NCBI RefSeq assembly: GCF_946482535.1
Contig: NZ_CAMLRU010000021.1
Coordinates: forward strand, 1-21,765
Source of the DNA: an uncultured Flavobacterium sp.
GTDB lineage: Bacteria; Bacteroidota; Bacteroidia; Flavobacteriales; Flavobacteriaceae
Length of the DNA stretch: 21,765 nt
Direction of reading: 5' to 3'
Within the stretch, counting starts at the first letter, position 1, and the number at the start of each line of letters is the position of its first letter. The position numbers were made by a program, and so were the translations under genes. Positions 10,326-17,796 of this stretch are shown here, piece after piece. The notes beneath the pieces are model-generated. The model did no database searches, was not told the DNA's origin, and saw only the letters and a program-made list of their open reading frames with translations.

Positions 10326-12713
10326 ATGAAACTCGTTAAAAAAATCCTCCTTGTAATTGTATTGTTGATTGTTTTAATCGTTATGGTTGGTGCAACTTAT
10401 TTGCAATACAGCAAACCCGATTATGAAGGCGAATTAACGCTGAACAATCTCAACAAAGAAACCACAGTTTATTTTGACGACTATGGTGTGCCGCACATTT
10501 ATGCCGAAAACCAAAAAGACGCCATGACCACATTAGGTTATGTTCATGCGCAAGATCGTTTGTGGCAAATGGAACTCATGCGACGCATCGCTCCGGGAAG
10601 ATTGGCCGAAATTTTTGGTGGTGCCGCTTTAAAAACAGACCAATTTTTTGCCGGAATCGGGATAGATGAAAATTCGGCTAAAGCAGTTGCCCAATTGGAT
10701 AAAAAATCGCCAACGTATATTTTGGCGCAAGCCTATCTCGACGGAATCAATCAATATATTGATAACGGTACGACTCCGGTGGAAATTCGATTACTCGGAA
10801 TAAAACAAGAAAAATTTACGCTAAAAGACGTGTACAATATTTTCGGTTTTATGTCGTTCAGTTTTGCGATGGCACAAAAAACCGATCCGTTACTGACTGA
10901 CATTCGTAACCGTTTTGGGATGGATTATTTAAAAGATTTCGGGATCAACGGCGAATTGGGAACGCAACAATTACAGTCGTTTCAAGGCCAATACAAAGAA
11001 TATAGTGAAATTTCTAAATCGGTCGCAGCACTACTTGATAGTTCTCCGGTTCCGGCTTTTATAGGTAGTAACAGCTGGGTTATCGGTACCGAAAAAACCA
11101 AAAACGGCAAAGTCATTTTGGCCAACGATCCGCACATTATGTATGCCCAACCCGGGACTTGGTACGAAGCGCACATCGTTTGTCCTGATTACGAAATGTA
11201 TGGCTACTACATTGCCGGAACGCCGTTTCCGCTTTTGGGTCACAATCGAGATTACGCCTATGGTTTGACTATGTTTGAAAACGATGATGTAGATTTCTTT
11301 GCCGAAGAAGAAAACCCCAATAATGCCAAGCAATACAAAACCCCTGAAGGGTTTAAAAATTATACCTACCATCAAAAAATCATCAAAGTTAAAGACAGTT
11401 CCGAGGTTAAGTTGAATGTGAAAACCAGTAAGCACGGACCAATTATTAATGGTTTGTTGGATGGCTTGCAAAGTGACCAATCTGTAGCCATGTCGTGGAT
11501 TTACACCCAACAAAAAAACCGAATTTTAGAAGCGGTTTATGCCTTGTCTCATGCTGAGAATTTGGAGCATTTTCATAACAGCATCGAATTGATTCATGCG
11601 CCGGGACTCAATGTAATGTACGGTGACGCCAAAGGTAATATCGCTTGGATTACTTCGGGGAAACTTTACAAGTTGCCTAAGTCGGTTAATGGTAATTTTA
11701 TAATGAACGGCGCTAACGGCGTTGATGACCAAAAAGAATGGTTGCCTTTTGCCCAAAATCCGCAAGCGATTAATCCGCCTTGGCATTATGTGTACAGTTC
11801 TAATAACCAACCTTCGCCCATCAACGGCTATTTGTATCCGGGATATTATTTGCCGAAAGACAGAGCCGTGCGAATAGATGGTTTTTTAAATCAAAAAAAC
11901 AAATGGGATAAAGAAGCCGTTTCTAAAATGATAGTCGATAATACGTCGGCAACAGCACAAACGATAGTTGGGAATATGACGAAACCGATGCAAACTAAGG
12001 ATTTTACTGGTAATGAAAAACAGGCGTTATCGGTATTGCAATCTTGGAAAGCCACTCACAATTTAGAGGACATCGCGCCAACGATTTACAACAAATGGTT
12101 TTATTTTTACTTGAAAGCCACTTTGGAAGATGAATTCGGAGAAGAAAACTTCAAGTTGTTGCTCAGCACACACATTATCAAACAAATGATAGAAAACCAA
12201 ACGGCGAACTCCGCTTCGCCATGGTGGGACAACATCAATACCAAAGACAAAAAAGAAACCCAATCGGAAATACTCACTCAATCGTTTAAACAGGCCGTGG
12301 CTTCTTTAGAAACCCAATTGGGCAGCGATGTTTCACAATGGCAATGGAGCAAAGTACACCAAGTCACCTTCCAACATCCTATAGGTAAAGTGAAATTGTT
12401 CAGCAGCTTCTTTAATGTAGGTCCGTTTCCAATATCAGGCACCAATGAAGTCATCAACAACCAACTGTTTATTTACACCGACGATGCTATAATTCCGGTC
12501 AAAGGCGGACCTTCAACTCGACGTATTATCGACTTTTCAGATATTGAAAACAGTCTGAGTGTTTTACCAACCGGACAAAGTGGTAATCCGATGAGTAAAC
12601 ATTACAGCGATCAATCGGAATTGTTTGTTAACGGTAAATTCAGAAAAATGAAGTTGAACAAGAAAGAAATTGAATCGTCCTCGACTAAAGTAGTGTTCCG
12701 ACCTCAAAACTAA
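10326..12713 (+). CDS. Penicillin acylase family (Ntn hydrolase) protein
   Basis: A 795-residue amidohydrolase precursor of the penicillin/cephalosporin/acyl-homoserine-lactone acylase family. Residues 4-25 form a hydrophobic anchor or signal. The alpha part includes GVPHIYAENQKDAMTTLGYVHAQDRLWQM (54-82, a strong family block). Autocleavage is expected between G247 and S248 in FIGSNSWVIG, making S248 the N-terminal nucleophile of the beta chain; HGP (in SKHGPIING) and SNNQP blocks follow. The family hydrolyses amide bonds of N-acylated compounds in the periplasm or at the outside of the inner membrane; the natural substrate is unknown. The stop overlaps by 3 nt the stop of the convergent photolyase-like gene, leaving no room for a terminator between them. 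Confidence 0.92.
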   Translation: MKLVKKILLVIVLLIVLIVMVGATYLQYSKPDYEGELTLNNLNKETTVYFDDYGVPHIYAENQKDAMTTLGYVHAQDRLWQMELMRRIAPGRLAEIFGGAALKTDQFFAGIGIDENSAKAVAQLDKKSPTYILAQAYLDGINQYIDNGTTPVEIRLLGIKQEKFTLKDVYNIFGFMSFSFAMAQKTDPLLTDIRNRFGMDYLKDFGINGELGTQQLQSFQGQYKEYSEISKSVAALLDSSPVPAFIGSNSWVIGTEKTKNGKVILANDPHIMYAQPGTWYEAHIVCPDYEMYGYYIAGTPFPLLGHNRDYAYGLTMFENDDVDFFAEEENPNNAKQYKTPEGFKNYTYHQKIIKVKDSSEVKLNVKTSKHGPIINGLLDGLQSDQSVAMSWIYTQQKNRILEAVYALSHAENLEHFHNSIELIHAPGLNVMYGDAKGNIAWITSGKLYKLPKSVNGNFIMNGANGVDDQKEWLPFAQNPQAINPPWHYVYSSNNQPSPINGYLYPGYYLPKDRAVRIDGFLNQKNKWDKEAVSKMIVDNTSATAQTIVGNMTKPMQTKDFTGNEKQALSVLQSWKATHNLEDIAPTIYNKWFYFYLKATLEDEFGEENFKLLLSTHIIKQMIENQTANSASPWWDNINTKDKKETQSEILTQSFKQAVASLETQLGSDVSQWQWSKVHQVTFQHPIGKVKLFSSFFNVGPFPISGTNEVINNQLFIYTDDAIIPVKGGPSTRRIIDFSDIENSLSVLPTGQSGNPMSKHYSDQSELFVNGKFRKMKLNKKEIESSSTKVVFRPQN

Positions 12714-14242
12714 AAAGCATCCGGATTTTCGATGATTTGAGCCGCGCGTTGTTTGTGTTGGAATAACTCTTCCGGTTTCATTTTTTGCAACAAACTCAGC
12801 ATCATCGCCATGCGTTGGTTGTTTTGGAAATGCGCTTTTTTATCGTCTAAAAAGTTCCAATACAAACTGTTGAACGGACAAGCTTTGTCTCCGAATTTGT
12901 CTTTAACCTTATAGTGACACGACTCACAGTAATTACTCATTTTTTGGATATAACTTCCGGAGGAAACATAGGGTTTGGTGGCTAAAATGCCGCCATCGGC
13001 ATACTGACTCATCCCACGTGTGTTGGGCAATTCTACCCATTCAATAGCATCAATGTAAACTCCGAGATACCAAGCATCAACAGCATCGGGATGGCGTTGC
13101 GTTAGCAAAGAAAAATTACCAATGACCATCAACCGCTGAATGTGGTGCGCATAAGCATCGTTCAAACTCTGATGCAAAGCTTGGTGCATGCAATTCATTT
13201 TGGTTTTTCCCGACCAATACATTTCCGGTAACGGCTCGTGGTTTTCCAAAGCGTTCATTTGGGCATATTGCGGCATTTCTTTCCAATAAATCCCTCGGAC
13301 ATATTCTCGCCAACCCAAAATTTGACGCACAAAACCTTCGACTTGTGCCAAGGTAATTTGCTCCTGATTTTGATAATAATGTTGCACTACTGAATCAATG
13401 ACTTCTTTGGGAGAAAGCATTTTAGCATTCATGGCAAATGACAAACGCGAGTGGAATAAATGCGGTTCAGCAGTGTGCATAGCATCTTCATACGTACCGA
13501 AATGCGGCAGCAATTCATTACAGAAATACTGCAATTGTTCCAAACATTCAGCTCTGGACATCGGCCAAACGAAGTTATTAGTGTCAATGGTTCCAAAGGT
13601 AATCACTCCGGCATTTTGTATTTCGGCTACGACATTAGCCACGGCTTTCGGAAAGACTTTGGTTTTCGGAACCGGTACTTCGCCTTTGTATTTTTTGCGG
13701 TTGTCGTGGTCAAAATTCCATTGGTTGCCTAACGGTTGTTCACCTACCATTAATACTTGGTGTTTTTTGCGCATCATCCGATAAAAACTTTCCATTAGCA
13801 ATTGTTTTTTGCCTTGGAAAAACCGACTCAATTCAACTCTATCCGTATAAAAATGTTCCGTGTCAAAAGCTCTTGAAGTAATATCAATCTTTTTGCAAAT
13901 GGCTTTCAATTGTTCGTCAAGTCGATATTCATCCGGTAGCTGATATTCAAAATGGGTGATGCCCGTCGTTGCGATTTCTCGTTGGATTAACTTTTCAAAA
14001 TCGTTTAAATTATCCGAATCCGAGATTTTATAATAGCGAACCTGATGTCCATTTTTTTGCAGCTGTTCCGCAAAGTTCCGCATCGCTAAAAAGAAAGCGG
14101 TGACTTTTTGAATATGGTGTTTCACATAATCGGTTTCCTGACGGACTTCCGCCATCAAATAAAAGACGGTATCATCTTTGGTTTGGAACCAAGAATGATT
14201 CGAGTTTAATTGGTCACCAAGAATTAGCCGGAGTGTTTTCAT
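12710..14242 (-). CDS. FeS-type cryptochrome/photolyase-related protein (PhrB-like, probable (6-4) photolyase)
   Basis: A 510-residue member of the photolyase-related family (FeS-BCP, Pfam DPRP), beginning LRLILGDQLN (4-13). The four cysteines that hold the [4Fe-4S] cluster in Agrobacterium PhrB (C350, C438, C441, C454) match C351, C439, C442 (NYCESC) and C455 (KACPF). The YAHHIQRLMVIGNF segment (364-377), carrying the active-site His pair, is intact. Characterised members repair (6-4) photoproducts with FAD and use a lumazine antenna. The ATG directly follows the cryptochrome-DASH stop (TAAATG), so it is the last gene of the light operon. Nothing key is missing. A light-sensor role instead of repair cannot be excluded from sequence. 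Confidence 0.93.
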   Translation of the reverse strand: MKTLRLILGDQLNSNHSWFQTKDDTVFYLMAEVRQETDYVKHHIQKVTAFFLAMRNFAEQLQKNGHQVRYYKISDSDNLNDFEKLIQREIATTGITHFEYQLPDEYRLDEQLKAICKKIDITSRAFDTEHFYTDRVELSRFFQGKKQLLMESFYRMMRKKHQVLMVGEQPLGNQWNFDHDNRKKYKGEVPVPKTKVFPKAVANVVAEIQNAGVITFGTIDTNNFVWPMSRAECLEQLQYFCNELLPHFGTYEDAMHTAEPHLFHSRLSFAMNAKMLSPKEVIDSVVQHYYQNQEQITLAQVEGFVRQILGWREYVRGIYWKEMPQYAQMNALENHEPLPEMYWSGKTKMNCMHQALHQSLNDAYAHHIQRLMVIGNFSLLTQRHPDAVDAWYLGVYIDAIEWVELPNTRGMSQYADGGILATKPYVSSGSYIQKMSNYCESCHYKVKDKFGDKACPFNSLYWNFLDDKKAHFQNNQRMAMMLSLLQKMKPEELFQHKQRAAQIIENPDAF

Positions 14243-15550
14243 TTAAAATAAGCTTGTTTGTAACCAAAGTTTTTGAAAGGCACCATTGGCATCGTACATT
14301 TCCGCTTGGCGTTTGATGTTGAATTTTCGGTCGCGCGGATCATTGCCTACGCCTGAGTTGTAAATCCAGTTTCCATAATTAGAATGCACATCATAATCGA
14401 TGAGCATACTTTCGAAATACGCTGCGGCTATGCGCCAATCTTGTTCCCATTCTTTGGCCCAAAAACTAGCCACGTTTTGCCGACCGCGATTGCTCATCCA
14501 ACCGGTTTGTTGGAGTTCAATCATGTTGGCGTTTACGAAAGGTTCTTTGGTTTGTCCGTTGGTCCATTGTTGGAAAGCTTTTGGGTTGAACTTCCATTCG
14601 TAGGTTTTGTTTAAAATACCCTTGAGTTGGAAAATTTTGTTGCCATGTTTGAGCGATATGTATTTGAAATAATCGCGCCAAATCAATTCAAAAATCAACC
14701 AATAAGTATCTTCATTGGCACCGATTTCTTTTTCGTAGCGCTTAACTTCCCAATAAATGGTTCGCGCCGAAATGCTGCCGTTGGCCAACCAAGCCGAGAG
14801 TTTGGAACTGTAATCTTTTCCGATTAAGCCATTGCGTGTTTTTTTGTACACCGACAGTTTTTTGGTCTCCCAAAAGTATTCCTCGATGCGAGAAAGTGCA
14901 TGATTTTCGCCACCTTGAAAAGGAAAAGCGGTTTTCTGATTCATTTCAAAATCTTCCAAGCCTAAATCGGTTACTGAAGGAATGACAGTGTTGTTTTCAA
15001 TCCAATTAGACTCGGGAAGTTTTGGGGTTTCTAACCGACTTTTCACGCGTACCGTTTTCTCGCATTGCTTGCGGAATTCGGTAAACACTTCCGGAATTTT
15101 CTTGAAGTCAGCATACGGAATGTCATCGGGATGGAATAAAAACTGATCGTAATATTCATTCCAAACGATTTGATTCAACTCGTTTTTCAATGCATCGGTT
15201 ACAGTCGCTTCTTCAGAAGTCCATTCTTTTTGAAGATAAATGGCTTCGATGCCGTAGTCGCTAATCAGTTTCGGAATTACTGCTTCCGGTTTTTCATGGA
15301 AGACCAATAAAGCGATGTGGTGTTGTTTTAAATTTCGGCGCAATTCCTGAACCGTTTCAATTAAAAATTGGGCTCTGAATTTTTCCGTTTTTTTGAAACC
15401 GTATGGTGTTTCGGCAAAATGCCTCGGGTCAAAGCAATACAAGGCGATGACTTGTTCGCTTTCTTTTGTGGCTCGGTATAAAGCGGTTTGGTCGTTGACC
15501 CGTAAATCGTTACGAAACCAAACTAAGCTTGTTTTTTGTTTTTTCTGCAT
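14243..15550 (-). CDS. Cryptochrome DASH family protein
   Basis: A 435-residue photolyase/cryptochrome. The N-terminal Rossmann antenna domain begins [14 protein letters not shown] (7-20). The FAD-binding helical domain contains [16 protein letters not shown] (246-261), ELIWRDYF (288-295), and the DASH signature [13 protein letters not shown] (351-363) with [16 protein letters not shown] (391-406). DASH proteins bind FAD and usually MTHF, repair cyclobutane dimers in single-stranded DNA and may also signal. The start at 15550 lies inside the end of the DUF2256 gene (28-nt overlap), and the stop abuts the FeS photolyase start, so translation of the three genes is probably coupled. The protein is not truncated. 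Confidence 0.94.
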
Positions 15551-15666
15551 CGGTCACTACAATAAAGTACTTCATTCCAATTTTTTTCCCATTTCTTACG
15601 CCAAGCGAAAGGCAATCCGCAGGTTTTGCAGATTTTTTCGGGTAAGTTCACTTTTTTATGCGCCAT
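15523..15666 (-). CDS. DUF2256 small zinc-ribbon-like protein
   Basis: Found by reading the reverse strand between the flavin reductase and the cryptochrome. It has 47 residues, starts [20 protein letters not shown] and ends with TAG at 15523-15525. Four cysteines, C13, C16, C36 and C40 (CKTC...CSDRC), suggest a zinc ribbon; the RKKWEKNW segment with conserved Trp and basic residues matches DUF2256. The family's function is unknown; from memory it often sits beside photolyase or cryptochrome genes. The start overlaps the reductase 3' end by 11 nt, and the 3' end overlaps the cryptochrome start by 28 nt. A single-strand nucleic-acid or photolyase partner role is inference only. Confidence 0.9.
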
Positions 15667-16303
15667 TTTTTAAGATGGATTTGGTTTGGGTTTGCGGACG
15701 CGCATAGTCAAATCGGTCTAAAATTTTGGGCAAGCAATAGCCGTCCAATCCGTTTACAGTTACTACATCGGCTTTATCTAGTTGCAACCAATAATCATCG
15801 TGTAACATCTCGTCACGGAAATGAATTTCTTCAATGGCTGCTATGATATGAATGGTGTTGTTTTCTTTGATTTCGTATTCGTTGAGGTATTTGCAAAGCA
15901 ATTTCACCGGACTTTCCGCAACAAAAGGCACGTCTATTTCTGAAAGGTATTCTTCGGTTAGTTTTACCATTTCAAATTCGGATTCCTCAGCATTATAACT
16001 GGCTGAGGTTTGATGTGCTTGGGCAATGATATTTTGGCCAATATGGTTTACGGTAAAATAGCCGGTTGCTTTTAGGTTTTCATAGGTGTTTCTCGCTACA
16101 ACATTTGGGCGAAGGATAAAACCTAACAAAGCGGGATTGCTTCCCAAATGCGTAACGCTCGAAAATACGGCCACATTAGCAACACCGGTTTCCGATTTGG
16201 TGCCGATTAAGTTAGCCGATTTGTATCCGGTACAACTGTTAATCAAGTTCAGACGATGTACTTTGGATAGCGAATCCCATTCGGAATGGGTAATTTTTCT
16301 CAT
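15656..16303 (-). CDS. Flavin reductase family (FMN-binding split-barrel) protein
   Basis: A 215-residue protein with the flavin reductase-like split-barrel pattern: [30 protein letters not shown] (31-60), GFILRP (61-66) and [17 protein letters not shown] (71-87). Members bind FMN or FAD and reduce it with NAD(P)H or pass electrons to partners. As first gene of the operon it may provide reduced flavin to the two photolyase-type proteins, which need FADH-; this is inference from position. The ATG at 16303 is preferred over the in-frame TTG at 16318, because the TTG lies within the candidate -7 box. A 15-nt palindrome lies in codons 5-9. Its 3' end overlaps the DUF2256 start by 11 nt. Confidence 0.88.
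16276..16290. other. Perfect 15-nt palindrome in the first codons of the flavin reductase gene
   Basis: CCCATTC-G-GAATGGG. As RNA from the - strand it could form a CCCATT/AATGGG stem with a CCG loop, starting about 13 nt after the ATG. It could be an operator downstream of the promoter, a translation-tuning hairpin, or coincidence. Confidence 0.5.
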
Positions 16304-16315
16304 GCTTTTTTCTTT

Positions 16316-16323
16316 CAAAGGTA
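16316..16323 (-). promoter_or_regulatory. Candidate -7 box of the light operon
   Basis: On the - strand the bases read TACCTTTG, a perfect TAnnTTTG match, 12 nt before the ATG at 16303. The leader would be very short. No TTG is found 19-21 nt upstream, so the -33 element is missing or replaced by an activator site in the divergent spacer (16324-16449). Confidence 0.5.
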
Positions 16324-16418
16324 AACTTTGTTTAACTTAAATAAAAAATAATTAAACAAAATTTATGATTTTGACCAAATAAATAAGTCTCAGGCGTTTT
16401 ACTTCTGTAATATTTCAG

Positions 16419-16449: not shown

Positions 16450-17796
16450 ATGCAAAATCCTCAAAAAATTGCCGTTGTCGGTTCGGGTTTAGTCGGAACT
16501 TTATTGGCAATCTATCTTAAAAGGCAAGGACATACCGTTCACGTTTACGACCGAAGTCCGGATATTCGAACAGTCGAATTTTCGGGACGTTCCATTAATT
16601 TGGTAATGTCTAATCGAGGTTGGAAAGCCATGGAAGATGTTGGTTTGGATGATGAAATCAGAAAGATTGGTATTCCGGTCGATAAAAGAGCGATTCATCT
16701 AAAAGACGGCAAACTCAATTACCAATATTACGGCAAAGACGGCGAGGCGATTTTTTCGTTATCACGTGGTGTTTTGAATCGAAGAATGATTGATTTGGCA
16801 GAAGCCGAAGACGTGGAGTTTTTCTTTGAGCACAAAATTTGGGACGTGACTTTAGCCACAGCAACTTTACACATCGGAGAAACCGAAAGAGGCGAGTGGA
16901 CCGAATTAAAGTACGATAAAGTATTTGGTGCCGATGGTGCTTTTTCGAGAATTCGCCACCGCATGCAACGCCAAAGTATGTTTGATTATTCGCAGGAGTT
17001 CATGAAATTGGGCTACAAAGAATTGCACATACCGGCGAACGCTGACGGATCGCACAAAATTGATAAAAACTCTTTACACATATGGCCGCGCGGCAATTTT
17101 ATGTTGATGGCATTGGCCAATTTAGACGGTAGTTTTACTTGTACGTTATTCATGCCGTTTGAAGGCGAAAACTCGTTTGAACAATTAAAAGATGAAGCCG
17201 CGCTGGTCGATTTCTTTGCTAATTATTTCCCTGATACGGCAGCAGTAATCCCCGATTTGGTTCGTGATTTCTTTAAAAACCCAACCAGTTACTTAGCGAT
17301 AATGAAGTGTTATCCTTGGACGTTTGAGGATAAGGTAGCTTTGATAGGTGATGCTTCTCACGCTATTGTGCCTTTTTACGGTCATGGGATGAATGCCGGT
17401 TTTGAAGACATTACCATTTTGAGCGAAATGATTTCAAAGTACGGCGATGATTGGAAAACTATTTTCTCCGAATACCAAAAATCGCGTAAACCCAATGCCG
17501 ATGCGATAGCCGAATTATCCTTGCGCAATTTCATCGAAATGAGTACCAAAACCGCCGATGAAAAATTCTTATTACAAAAGAAAATCGAAAAATGGTTCTC
17601 CGACAAGCATCCCGACAAATGGATGCCTTTGTACAGTCGCGTAACGTTTAGTTTGCAACCTTACTCCGAAGCTTTGGCGATAGGTGATTTCCAAAATCAA
17701 ATTATGGAAGAGGTGATGCAGATGCCGAATATTGAAGAAAAGTGGAATAGCGAAGCGGTGGAAAACAAAATTATATCGCTATTAAACTCCAAATAG
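16450..17796 (+). CDS. kmo: Kynurenine 3-monooxygenase
   Basis: A 448-residue FAD-dependent aromatic hydroxylase that converts L-kynurenine to 3-hydroxykynurenine with NADPH and O2. The N-terminal dinucleotide-binding motif is GSGLVG (11-16). Family blocks SGRSINLVMSNRGW (45-58), SLSRGVLNRRMIDLA (103-117), GADGAFSRIR (160-169) and GDASHAIVPFYGHGMNAGFED (starting at residue 300) identify KMO rather than a general hydroxylase. Its product is a substrate of the kynureninase coded at 5565-6842. The two genes are not in one operon. The C-terminal codons (NSK) and stop lie in a 14-nt repeat. A long inverted repeat downstream probably ends transcription. Confidence 0.95.
   Translation: MQNPQKIAVVGSGLVGTLLAIYLKRQGHTVHVYDRSPDIRTVEFSGRSINLVMSNRGWKAMEDVGLDDEIRKIGIPVDKRAIHLKDGKLNYQYYGKDGEAIFSLSRGVLNRRMIDLAEAEDVEFFFEHKIWDVTLATATLHIGETERGEWTELKYDKVFGADGAFSRIRHRMQRQSMFDYSQEFMKLGYKELHIPANADGSHKIDKNSLHIWPRGNFMLMALANLDGSFTCTLFMPFEGENSFEQLKDEAALVDFFANYFPDTAAVIPDLVRDFFKNPTSYLAIMKCYPWTFEDKVALIGDASHAIVPFYGHGMNAGFEDITILSEMISKYGDDWKTIFSEYQKSRKPNADAIAELSLRNFIEMSTKTADEKFLLQKKIEKWFSDKHPDKWMPLYSRVTFSLQPYSEALAIGDFQNQIMEEVMQMPNIEEKWNSEAVENKIISLLNSK

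Follow-up and report, generated by a model that had tools for sequence, protein, structure and literature searches.

A compact group of flavin reductase-like, DUF2256 and photolyase genes

We analysed a 21,765-nt stretch of DNA from an uncultured Flavobacterium sp. (contig NZ_CAMLRU010000021.1 of assembly GCF_946482535.1; hereafter the window), which carries on its minus strand a group of four genes. These code for a flavin reductase-like protein (FR; 16303..15656, with an ATG at 16303), the four-cysteine zinc-finger-like protein DUF2256 (15666..15523), a cryptochrome DASH (15550..14243), and a photolyase of the FeS-BCP, or prokaryotic (6-4), type (14242..12710). A sequence-only reading of the window had described four overlapping or abutting frames, and our re-measurement returned the same positions, with an 11-nt overlap between FR and DUF2256, a 28-nt overlap between DUF2256 and DASH, and a 0-nt gap between DASH and FeS-BCP. 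Upstream of FR lies a perfect inverted repeat of 34 bp, TTTGTTTAA-N16-TTAAACAAA (16327..16360, 0 mismatches). Judging from the patterns described below, the four genes probably form a single light-induced DNA-repair operon, repressed in the dark by a CarH/LitR-type protein at this predicted operator.

FR (215 amino acids) belongs to PF01613 (64 bits, cut-off 27), and its closest relative in the PDB is 3fge, annotated as "putative flavin reductase with split barrel domain" (4.6e-48); an NAD(P)H:flavin reductase activity is putative. DUF2256 (47 amino acids) matches PF10013 at 76 bits (cut-off 25; 2.1e-21). The DASH protein (435 amino acids), which contains PF00875 and PF03441, falls into family TIGR02765 (511 bits, cut-off 317) and is closest to 1np7 (2.8e-119), with putative functions in the repair of cyclobutane pyrimidine dimers in single-stranded DNA or in photoreception. 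FeS-BCP (510 amino acids; PF04244, 257 bits, cut-off 22.1) is closest to 7ykn, "6-4 photolyase (FeS-BCP, CryPro)" (2.7e-165), and matches PhrB (4dja) at 4.6e-125. Its cluster cysteines C351, C439, C442 and C455 have 87, 2 and 12 residues in between, in agreement with the spacing of 86-89, 2 and 12-15 residues given in the available portion of PMC3204975. The protein is thus a member of this family, with putative (6-4) repair activity and a putative lumazine antenna.

Among 17 related loci retrieved by a DASH scan, 13 of them titled Flavobacterium, the order FR-DUF2256-DASH-FeS was kept in 15. The exceptions were a locus at a contig end (L015) and one from Pustulibacterium (L016) with DASH-FeS only, in whose genome a search for DUF2256 gave no match. 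Junctions ranged among the relatives from -11 to +2 nt (FR-DUF2256), from -28 to +219 nt (DUF2256-DASH) and from -13 to +135 nt (DASH-FeS). Such variable junctions would fit a single transcript but not a set stoichiometry; the fixed stoichiometry that the sequence-only reading had drawn from the overlaps is therefore not supported.

The inverted repeat recurs at light-related genes

The operator is placed between FR and a divergent plus-strand open reading frame (ORF; 16450-17796), which we take to code for a kynurenine 3-monooxygenase-like protein. Raising the tolerance to 3 mismatches brings up no other match in the window; at this tolerance, some match appeared in 19 of 100 shuffles. The -7 box of Bacteroidota promoters has the consensus TAnnTTTG, and a candidate box of this type, TACCTTTG (16316..16323, minus strand), stands 3 nt from the operator arm and 12 nt before the FR start codon. 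The operator is found in each of the 15 FR-bearing relatives (14 exactly and one with 1 mismatch), and in the window and 14 of these 15 a TAnnTTTG box follows it by 2-5 nt. Over the window and the 15 relatives, conservation reached 99.7% in the operator arms, as compared to 68% in the spacer and 66% in the upstream flank.

In six related genomes we found 9-15 operator sites each at up to 2 mismatches, as compared to 2-9 for the reversed pattern, so that some of the two-mismatch sites are chance matches. We read 40 regions around chosen sites in these genomes, scanning the families on one member each and naming crtI, START-like, fasciclin-like and a few other genes by their appearance. Sites flank a CarH-like MerR gene in five of the six genomes, in four of which this gene adjoins what is presumably a crtI-like gene. 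Taken jointly, the six genomes also have sites flanking rhodopsin, beta-carotene dioxygenase (BCD), folE, tspO, DUF2805, TetR-ABC1 kinase, FR-FeS-BCP and SDR-photolyase operons. In three of the relatives (L172, L185, L188), rhodopsin-like and BCD-like genes diverge around two tandem operator copies located 43-45 nt apart. A second operator-linked photorepair run, seen in two loci (L160:4001-8034 and L196:3001-6032), comprises a small first gene, which we take to be START-like, an SDR gene and two photolyase-like ORFs. Genes for what appear to us to be fasciclin-like secreted proteins stand repeatedly beside the operator (L162, L165, L177, L181, L187, L192, L195, L197).

We further searched 218 genomes, drawn evenly across the Bacteroidota. 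At up to 1 mismatch this search retrieved 113 sites in 47 genomes, as compared to 13 sites in 11 genomes for the reversed pattern. Among the 75 sites listed of these 113, 13 were found within 3 kb of a gene for DUF2256, FeS-BCP, DASH, FR or a class I-like photolyase (27 class I-like photolyases entered this count), where 0.44 were expected.

A CarH-like regulator accompanies the operator

The CarH-like gene was seen in the relatives and not in the window, and the protein that we examined comes from the genome (G001) of one of them, L003. This protein combines a MerR helix-turn-helix domain with a B12-binding_2 domain, contains the RxWEKRY motif, and has the T. thermophilus structure 3whp and CarH (5c8d) as its best PDB matches. 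Its alignment with 3whp shows the Wx9EH motif (WQTDTITPAHEH at 143) and the lower-ligand motif ExHxxG (EIHELG at 191).

At a threshold of >140 bits, a CarH-like MerR was present in 44 of the 218 genomes, among them 23/23 genomes with at least two sites and 36/47 with at least one (Fisher 3e-19 and 1e-23, respectively). Moreover, 16 of the 75 listed sites are within 500 bp of a CarH-like gene, against an expectation of 0.04. Each operator arm includes one TAAACA, which matches the TnnACA half-site of CarH operators; these are described in the available parts of PMC8156234 and PMC9304148 as tandem 11-bp direct repeats (nAnnTnnACAn). No published CarH/LitR operator or regulon from Flavobacteria or Bacteroidetes was found in the accessible portion of the open-licence literature. 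Light responses as such are documented: by the available text of the respective reports, carotenoids are light-induced in Chryseobacterium lacus (PMC7064467), and cryptochrome and photolyase genes of Dokdonia MED134 are under light-dependent regulation (PMC9040609).

DUF2256 co-occurs with FeS-BCP and DASH across the Bacteroidota

Co-occurrence no better than chance would have refuted the sequence-only reading, and in the 218 Bacteroidota the families occur together far more often than that: DUF2256 and FeS-BCP are both present in 64 genomes, where 23.1 were expected (Fisher 9e-39, kinship ignored). DUF2256 was found in 70 genomes (69 over the cut-off), PF04244 in 72 and DASH above its cut-off in 51, with some photolyase-family match in 150. 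FR had any match in 117 genomes and a match at >130 bits, a threshold set at a score drop from 135 to 59 bits, in 38. Joint occurrence also exceeded expectation for FeS-BCP and DASH (46 genomes, 16.8 expected), DUF2256 and FR (33, 12.2 expected), and FeS-BCP and FR (32, 12.6 expected). Where DUF2256 and FeS-BCP are both present, they lie within 5 kb of each other in just 27 of 64 cases, each time on the same strand, and the tie between the two is therefore more than linkage. The same figure bears on the self-contained repair or light-response module that had been proposed for the window: the light response gains support from an operator that also stands at carotenoid and rhodopsin genes, but a self-contained module is not supported.

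The presence of DUF2256 follows that of two photolyase families: 45 of the 46 genomes that combine FeS-BCP with DASH have it, as do 19 of 26 with FeS-BCP alone, three of five with DASH alone, and three of 141 with neither (Fisher 2e-16 for FeS-BCP alone as compared to neither, kinship ignored). Where the only photolyase-family matches are class I-like (E <= 1e-40; 49 genomes), DUF2256 occurred in two, one of which (G016) is a weak partial match. Among the 111 genomes with DASH or a class I-like photolyase, DUF2256 was present in 55/57 with FeS-BCP and in 5/54 without it (Fisher 4e-23), and FR in 28/57 and 4/54, respectively. By these counts, DUF2256 accompanies FeS-BCP and DASH rather than photolyases generally, and FeS-BCP alone is sufficient. 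DASH occurs too seldom without FeS-BCP to be discounted as the partner; we dropped the statement that DUF2256 tracks FeS-BCP and not DASH, as DASH without FeS-BCP was found in just the five genomes mentioned, three of them having DUF2256.

Since the above p-values ignore kinship, we made contrasts on RecA trees (edge-disjoint pairs, sign test) of 80 of the 218 genomes, which comprised every one of the 7 discordant genomes in the set of 111 as well as 37/55 and 36/49 concordant ones. Of 17-18 contrasts, 11-13 showed DUF2256 and FeS-BCP changing together and 0 showed them changing in opposite directions (worst sign-test p = 0.001). For DASH and FeS-BCP, 12-15 contrasts agreed and no more than 2 were opposite (worst p = 0.013). 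Beyond the 218 genomes we covered 14 control genomes, in which DUF2256 matched in Caulobacter and Synechococcus elongatus and PF04244 in the same two and Haloferax, as well as 14 of 134 plasmid records.

The DUF2256 protein and its gene neighbourhoods

An alignment of the window protein with 49 others, taken from 120 listed of 236 homologues, showed K5, P9, K11, C13, C16, W22, K24, W26, W30, C36 and C40 to be invariant across the 50 sequences, so that all four cysteines are preserved. Searching the sequence against solved structures yielded nothing significant (best E 0.31). A fold search (Foldseek) with the predicted model (pLDDT 82.6, pTM 0.52) placed YacG bound to gyrase (4tma) on top, followed by the FCS finger of LMBL2 (2w0t), both with weak scores; YacG is presumably the same family as DUF329. 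The Pfam TRASH clan, according to the available part of PMC4047054, includes both DUF2256 and DUF329. DUF2256 is likely a zinc-binding treble clef. The accessible portion of the open-licence literature yielded no published photolyase link for DUF2256, DUF2805, TIGR03643, COG4338 or PF10013.

No fusion of DUF2256 to a photolyase was found around the 70 DUF2256 matches in the 218 genomes, the longest open frame being 153 amino acids. With two weak partial matches (G016, G087) dropped, we examined 68 DUF2256 loci using a simple ORF caller. In 40 of them DUF2256 directly adjoins a photolyase-family ORF on the same strand, and in 48 such an ORF is found somewhere in the fetched stretch (about 5 kb per side, contig permitting). 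The adjoining photolyases are of several kinds, and the other repeated neighbours include SDR, DUF2805/TIGR03643, FR and a TetR-ABC1 kinase pair.

The operator was present at up to 1 mismatch in 8 of the 68 loci, and at up to 2 mismatches it heads a same-strand run reaching DUF2256 in nine (L055, L067, L070, L082, L085, L086, L094, L112, L114). In L067 and L086 this run includes a photolyase-family gene, DUF2256 and FeS-BCP, and presumably also a phytoene-synthase-like gene. In L070, L082 and L094 the operator is followed by TetR-like and ABC1/AarF-like kinase genes and then by DUF2256-photolyase genes, with the kinase gene coming first in L085.

DUF2256 is also found on 134 plasmid records, 57 of them from Pantoea. 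In 6 of the 14 plasmid loci that we read, an FeS-BCP homologue lies within 5 kb of DUF2256; in one (Salinivibrio) DUF2256 is overlapped by a photolyase gene, and in another a weak photolyase match appears at the end of the stretch. The plasmids of Spirosoma, Hirschia, Thioclava, Erwinia, Pantoea and Azospirillum showed no photolyase within 5 kb of DUF2256, the chromosomes not having been searched.

DUF2805/TIGR03643, itself a small protein, recurs by DUF2256 or photolyases, and in one genome it has its own operator copy (L173:3034-3324, L131, L136).

Discussion

The sequences establish the four families and their packing, the operator, how well it is conserved and that it recurs beside light-related genes of relatives, its genome-level match with a CarH-like gene, and the co-occurrence of DUF2256, FeS-BCP and DASH. 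Because relatives have the same repeat also at genes for carotenoids, rhodopsin and further photolyases, the group in the window is probably light-switched. In the dark, a CarH-like protein would bind the operator and repress the operon; light, possibly through adenosylcobalamin, would release this protein, and FR, DUF2256, DASH and FeS-BCP would then be made from one mRNA, together with carotenoids, rhodopsin, folE and the second photolyase operon. The folE gene leads to pterins, the precursor of the DASH antenna. FR may supply reduced flavin for the FADH- of both photolyases, and DUF2256, as a small treble-clef zinc finger, could act as an adaptor or assembly partner of FeS-BCP, or of FeS-BCP and DASH, its most likely partner being the FeS-BCP (6-4)-type photolyase. 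Of these functional assignments, the tie between DUF2256 and photolyases appears the best supported and the role of FR the least. More tentatively, a CarH-like regulon defined by the palindromic TTTGTTTAA-N16-TTAAACAAA might tie two photolyase operons to those for rhodopsin, carotenoids and pterins in the Bacteroidota, with DUF2256 being a dedicated partner of the FeS (6-4) photolyase, a proposal towards which we remain slightly sceptical.

Several observations weigh against this interpretation. The full B12 motif, as defined in the available text of PMC9304148, was not found in the G001 regulator, where the SxT/V position reads YMT and GG was not found; B12 binding is therefore uncertain, and we refer to the protein as CarH-like and not as B12-CarH. 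The operator is not a tandem direct repeat as in CarH sites, being an inverted pair with N16. In eight of the 44 CarH-like genomes no site was found with 1 mismatch or fewer. The reversed control pattern is over-represented in CarH-like genomes too, with five of the 11 genomes that it hits carrying a CarH-like gene, so that AT-rich base composition may account for some of the sites, if few. Among the 64 genomes that combine DUF2256 with FeS-BCP, 37 have no CarH-like gene at >140 bits, and such control would therefore be limited to part of the phylum. As partners of DUF2256, FeS-BCP and DASH are poorly separated: DUF2256 and DASH occur together in 48 genomes, where 16.4 were expected, and on the RecA trees DASH changes with DUF2256 in 11-14 of 15 contrasts, with no more than 1 going the other way (worst p = 0.006). 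DUF2256 is missing from 8 of the 72 FeS-BCP genomes, and in genomes that have neither DASH nor a photolyase of the class I-like kind it is present in just 9/15 with FeS-BCP (1/92 without). The six photolyase-free plasmid loci count against a strict local partnership of DUF2256. The contrasts for FR are weak, with 7-11 concordant and as many as 3 opposite (worst p = 0.23).

These observations leave room for other explanations. The genes could be an ordinary photorepair cluster kept by linkage and vertical descent, with the repeat serving as the site of another regulator, such as a stress or TetR-type one, whose signal is not light. Such a regulator is hinted at by the operator-bearing TetR-like gene, followed by the ABC1-kinase gene, that precedes DUF2256-photolyase genes in G073, G147 and G093, and the genes after sites include what appear to be fasciclin-, msrA- and glutathione-peroxidase-like ones. 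We nevertheless consider this explanation unlikely, since a CarH-like gene is present in every one of the 23 multi-site genomes and beside 16 of the 75 listed sites (no search of the 218 covered the TetR-like gene), and since the site is common to rhodopsin/BCD, crtI-like and photolyase genes.

Two further alternatives concern individual members of the proposed light-induced operon. FR might serve a different flavin-dependent process and merely be co-regulated with the photolyases, as would fit its weak phylogenetic contrasts and its location (at >130 bits) within 5 kb of FeS-BCP in just 10 of the 32 genomes having both. Against this stand the enrichment of FR among photolyase genomes with FeS-BCP described above, and the fact that in G073 and G147 FR and FeS-BCP make their own pair behind an operator; we regard a separate role for FR as quite conceivable, if short of probable. 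DUF2256, for its part, might be a small regulator or nucleic-acid-binding protein of a wider light or UV response, resembling YacG or an FCS finger, and not a photolyase partner. Its two top fold matches point in this direction, as do its position beside several kinds of photolyase and its occurrence on Hirschia, Thioclava, Erwinia and Pantoea plasmids (L130, L132, L134, L135) that have no photolyase within 5 kb; this we hold to be possible but rather doubtful.

The proposed operon resembles the Pseudomonas LitR/PplR regulon (phrB, cryB, folE, SDR, ufaM) in having a LitR/CarH-type repressor and light-induced photolyase, cryptochrome-like and folE genes; the available text of PMC9758184 describes phrB, cryB and folE of Pseudomonas as light-induced genes on which LitR proteins act. 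In Pseudomonas, a class II LitR works with LOV proteins at TGTACA-N12-TGTACA sites, whereas here we find a Wx9EH protein and TTTGTTTAA-N16-TTAAACAAA, in addition to DUF2256, FR, DASH and rhodopsin. The regulator shares with CarH of Thermus, Bacillus and Myxococcus the MerR and B12-binding architecture, the Wx9EH and ExHxxG motifs, and a site beside crt genes, but one inverted pair replaces their tandem 11-bp direct repeats, and the SxT/V and GG elements are not matched. FeS-BCP resembles the (6-4) photolyases PhrB of Agrobacterium and CryPro in its PF04244 domain, four-cysteine pattern and PDB matches, and unlike them it is grouped with DASH, FR and DUF2256. DUF2256 shares its clan with the YacG/TRASH treble clefs, YacG being its top, if weak, Foldseek match, yet its context is photolyase-linked while that of YacG is gyrase-linked. 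Finally, the UV-B operon of Synechococcus PCC 7335 also has two photolyase genes in one operon, there with an 11-nt overlap and demonstrated by RT-qPCR (PMC9649867, available portion); its photolyase classes are different, and that portion does not mention DUF2256, FR or a CarH operator.

The association with photolyases provides a first functional lead for DUF2256, and its strong genetic tie to FeS-BCP and DASH may reveal a part of bacterial (6-4) repair that has so far been missed. The operator offers a handle on how rhodopsin, carotenoids and photorepair could be coordinated by light in non-phototrophic Bacteroidota; it allows the members of the regulon to be predicted for each genome, and poses the question of whether a CarH-like protein reads an inverted repeat.

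Scans of the window with Rfam retrieved no RNA element above the gathering score, and a PADLOC scan for an anti-phage role gave no match at E 0.1. At the distal end of the group, the 3' end of FeS-BCP overlaps a convergent plus-strand ORF (10326-12713) by 4 nt (12710-12713).

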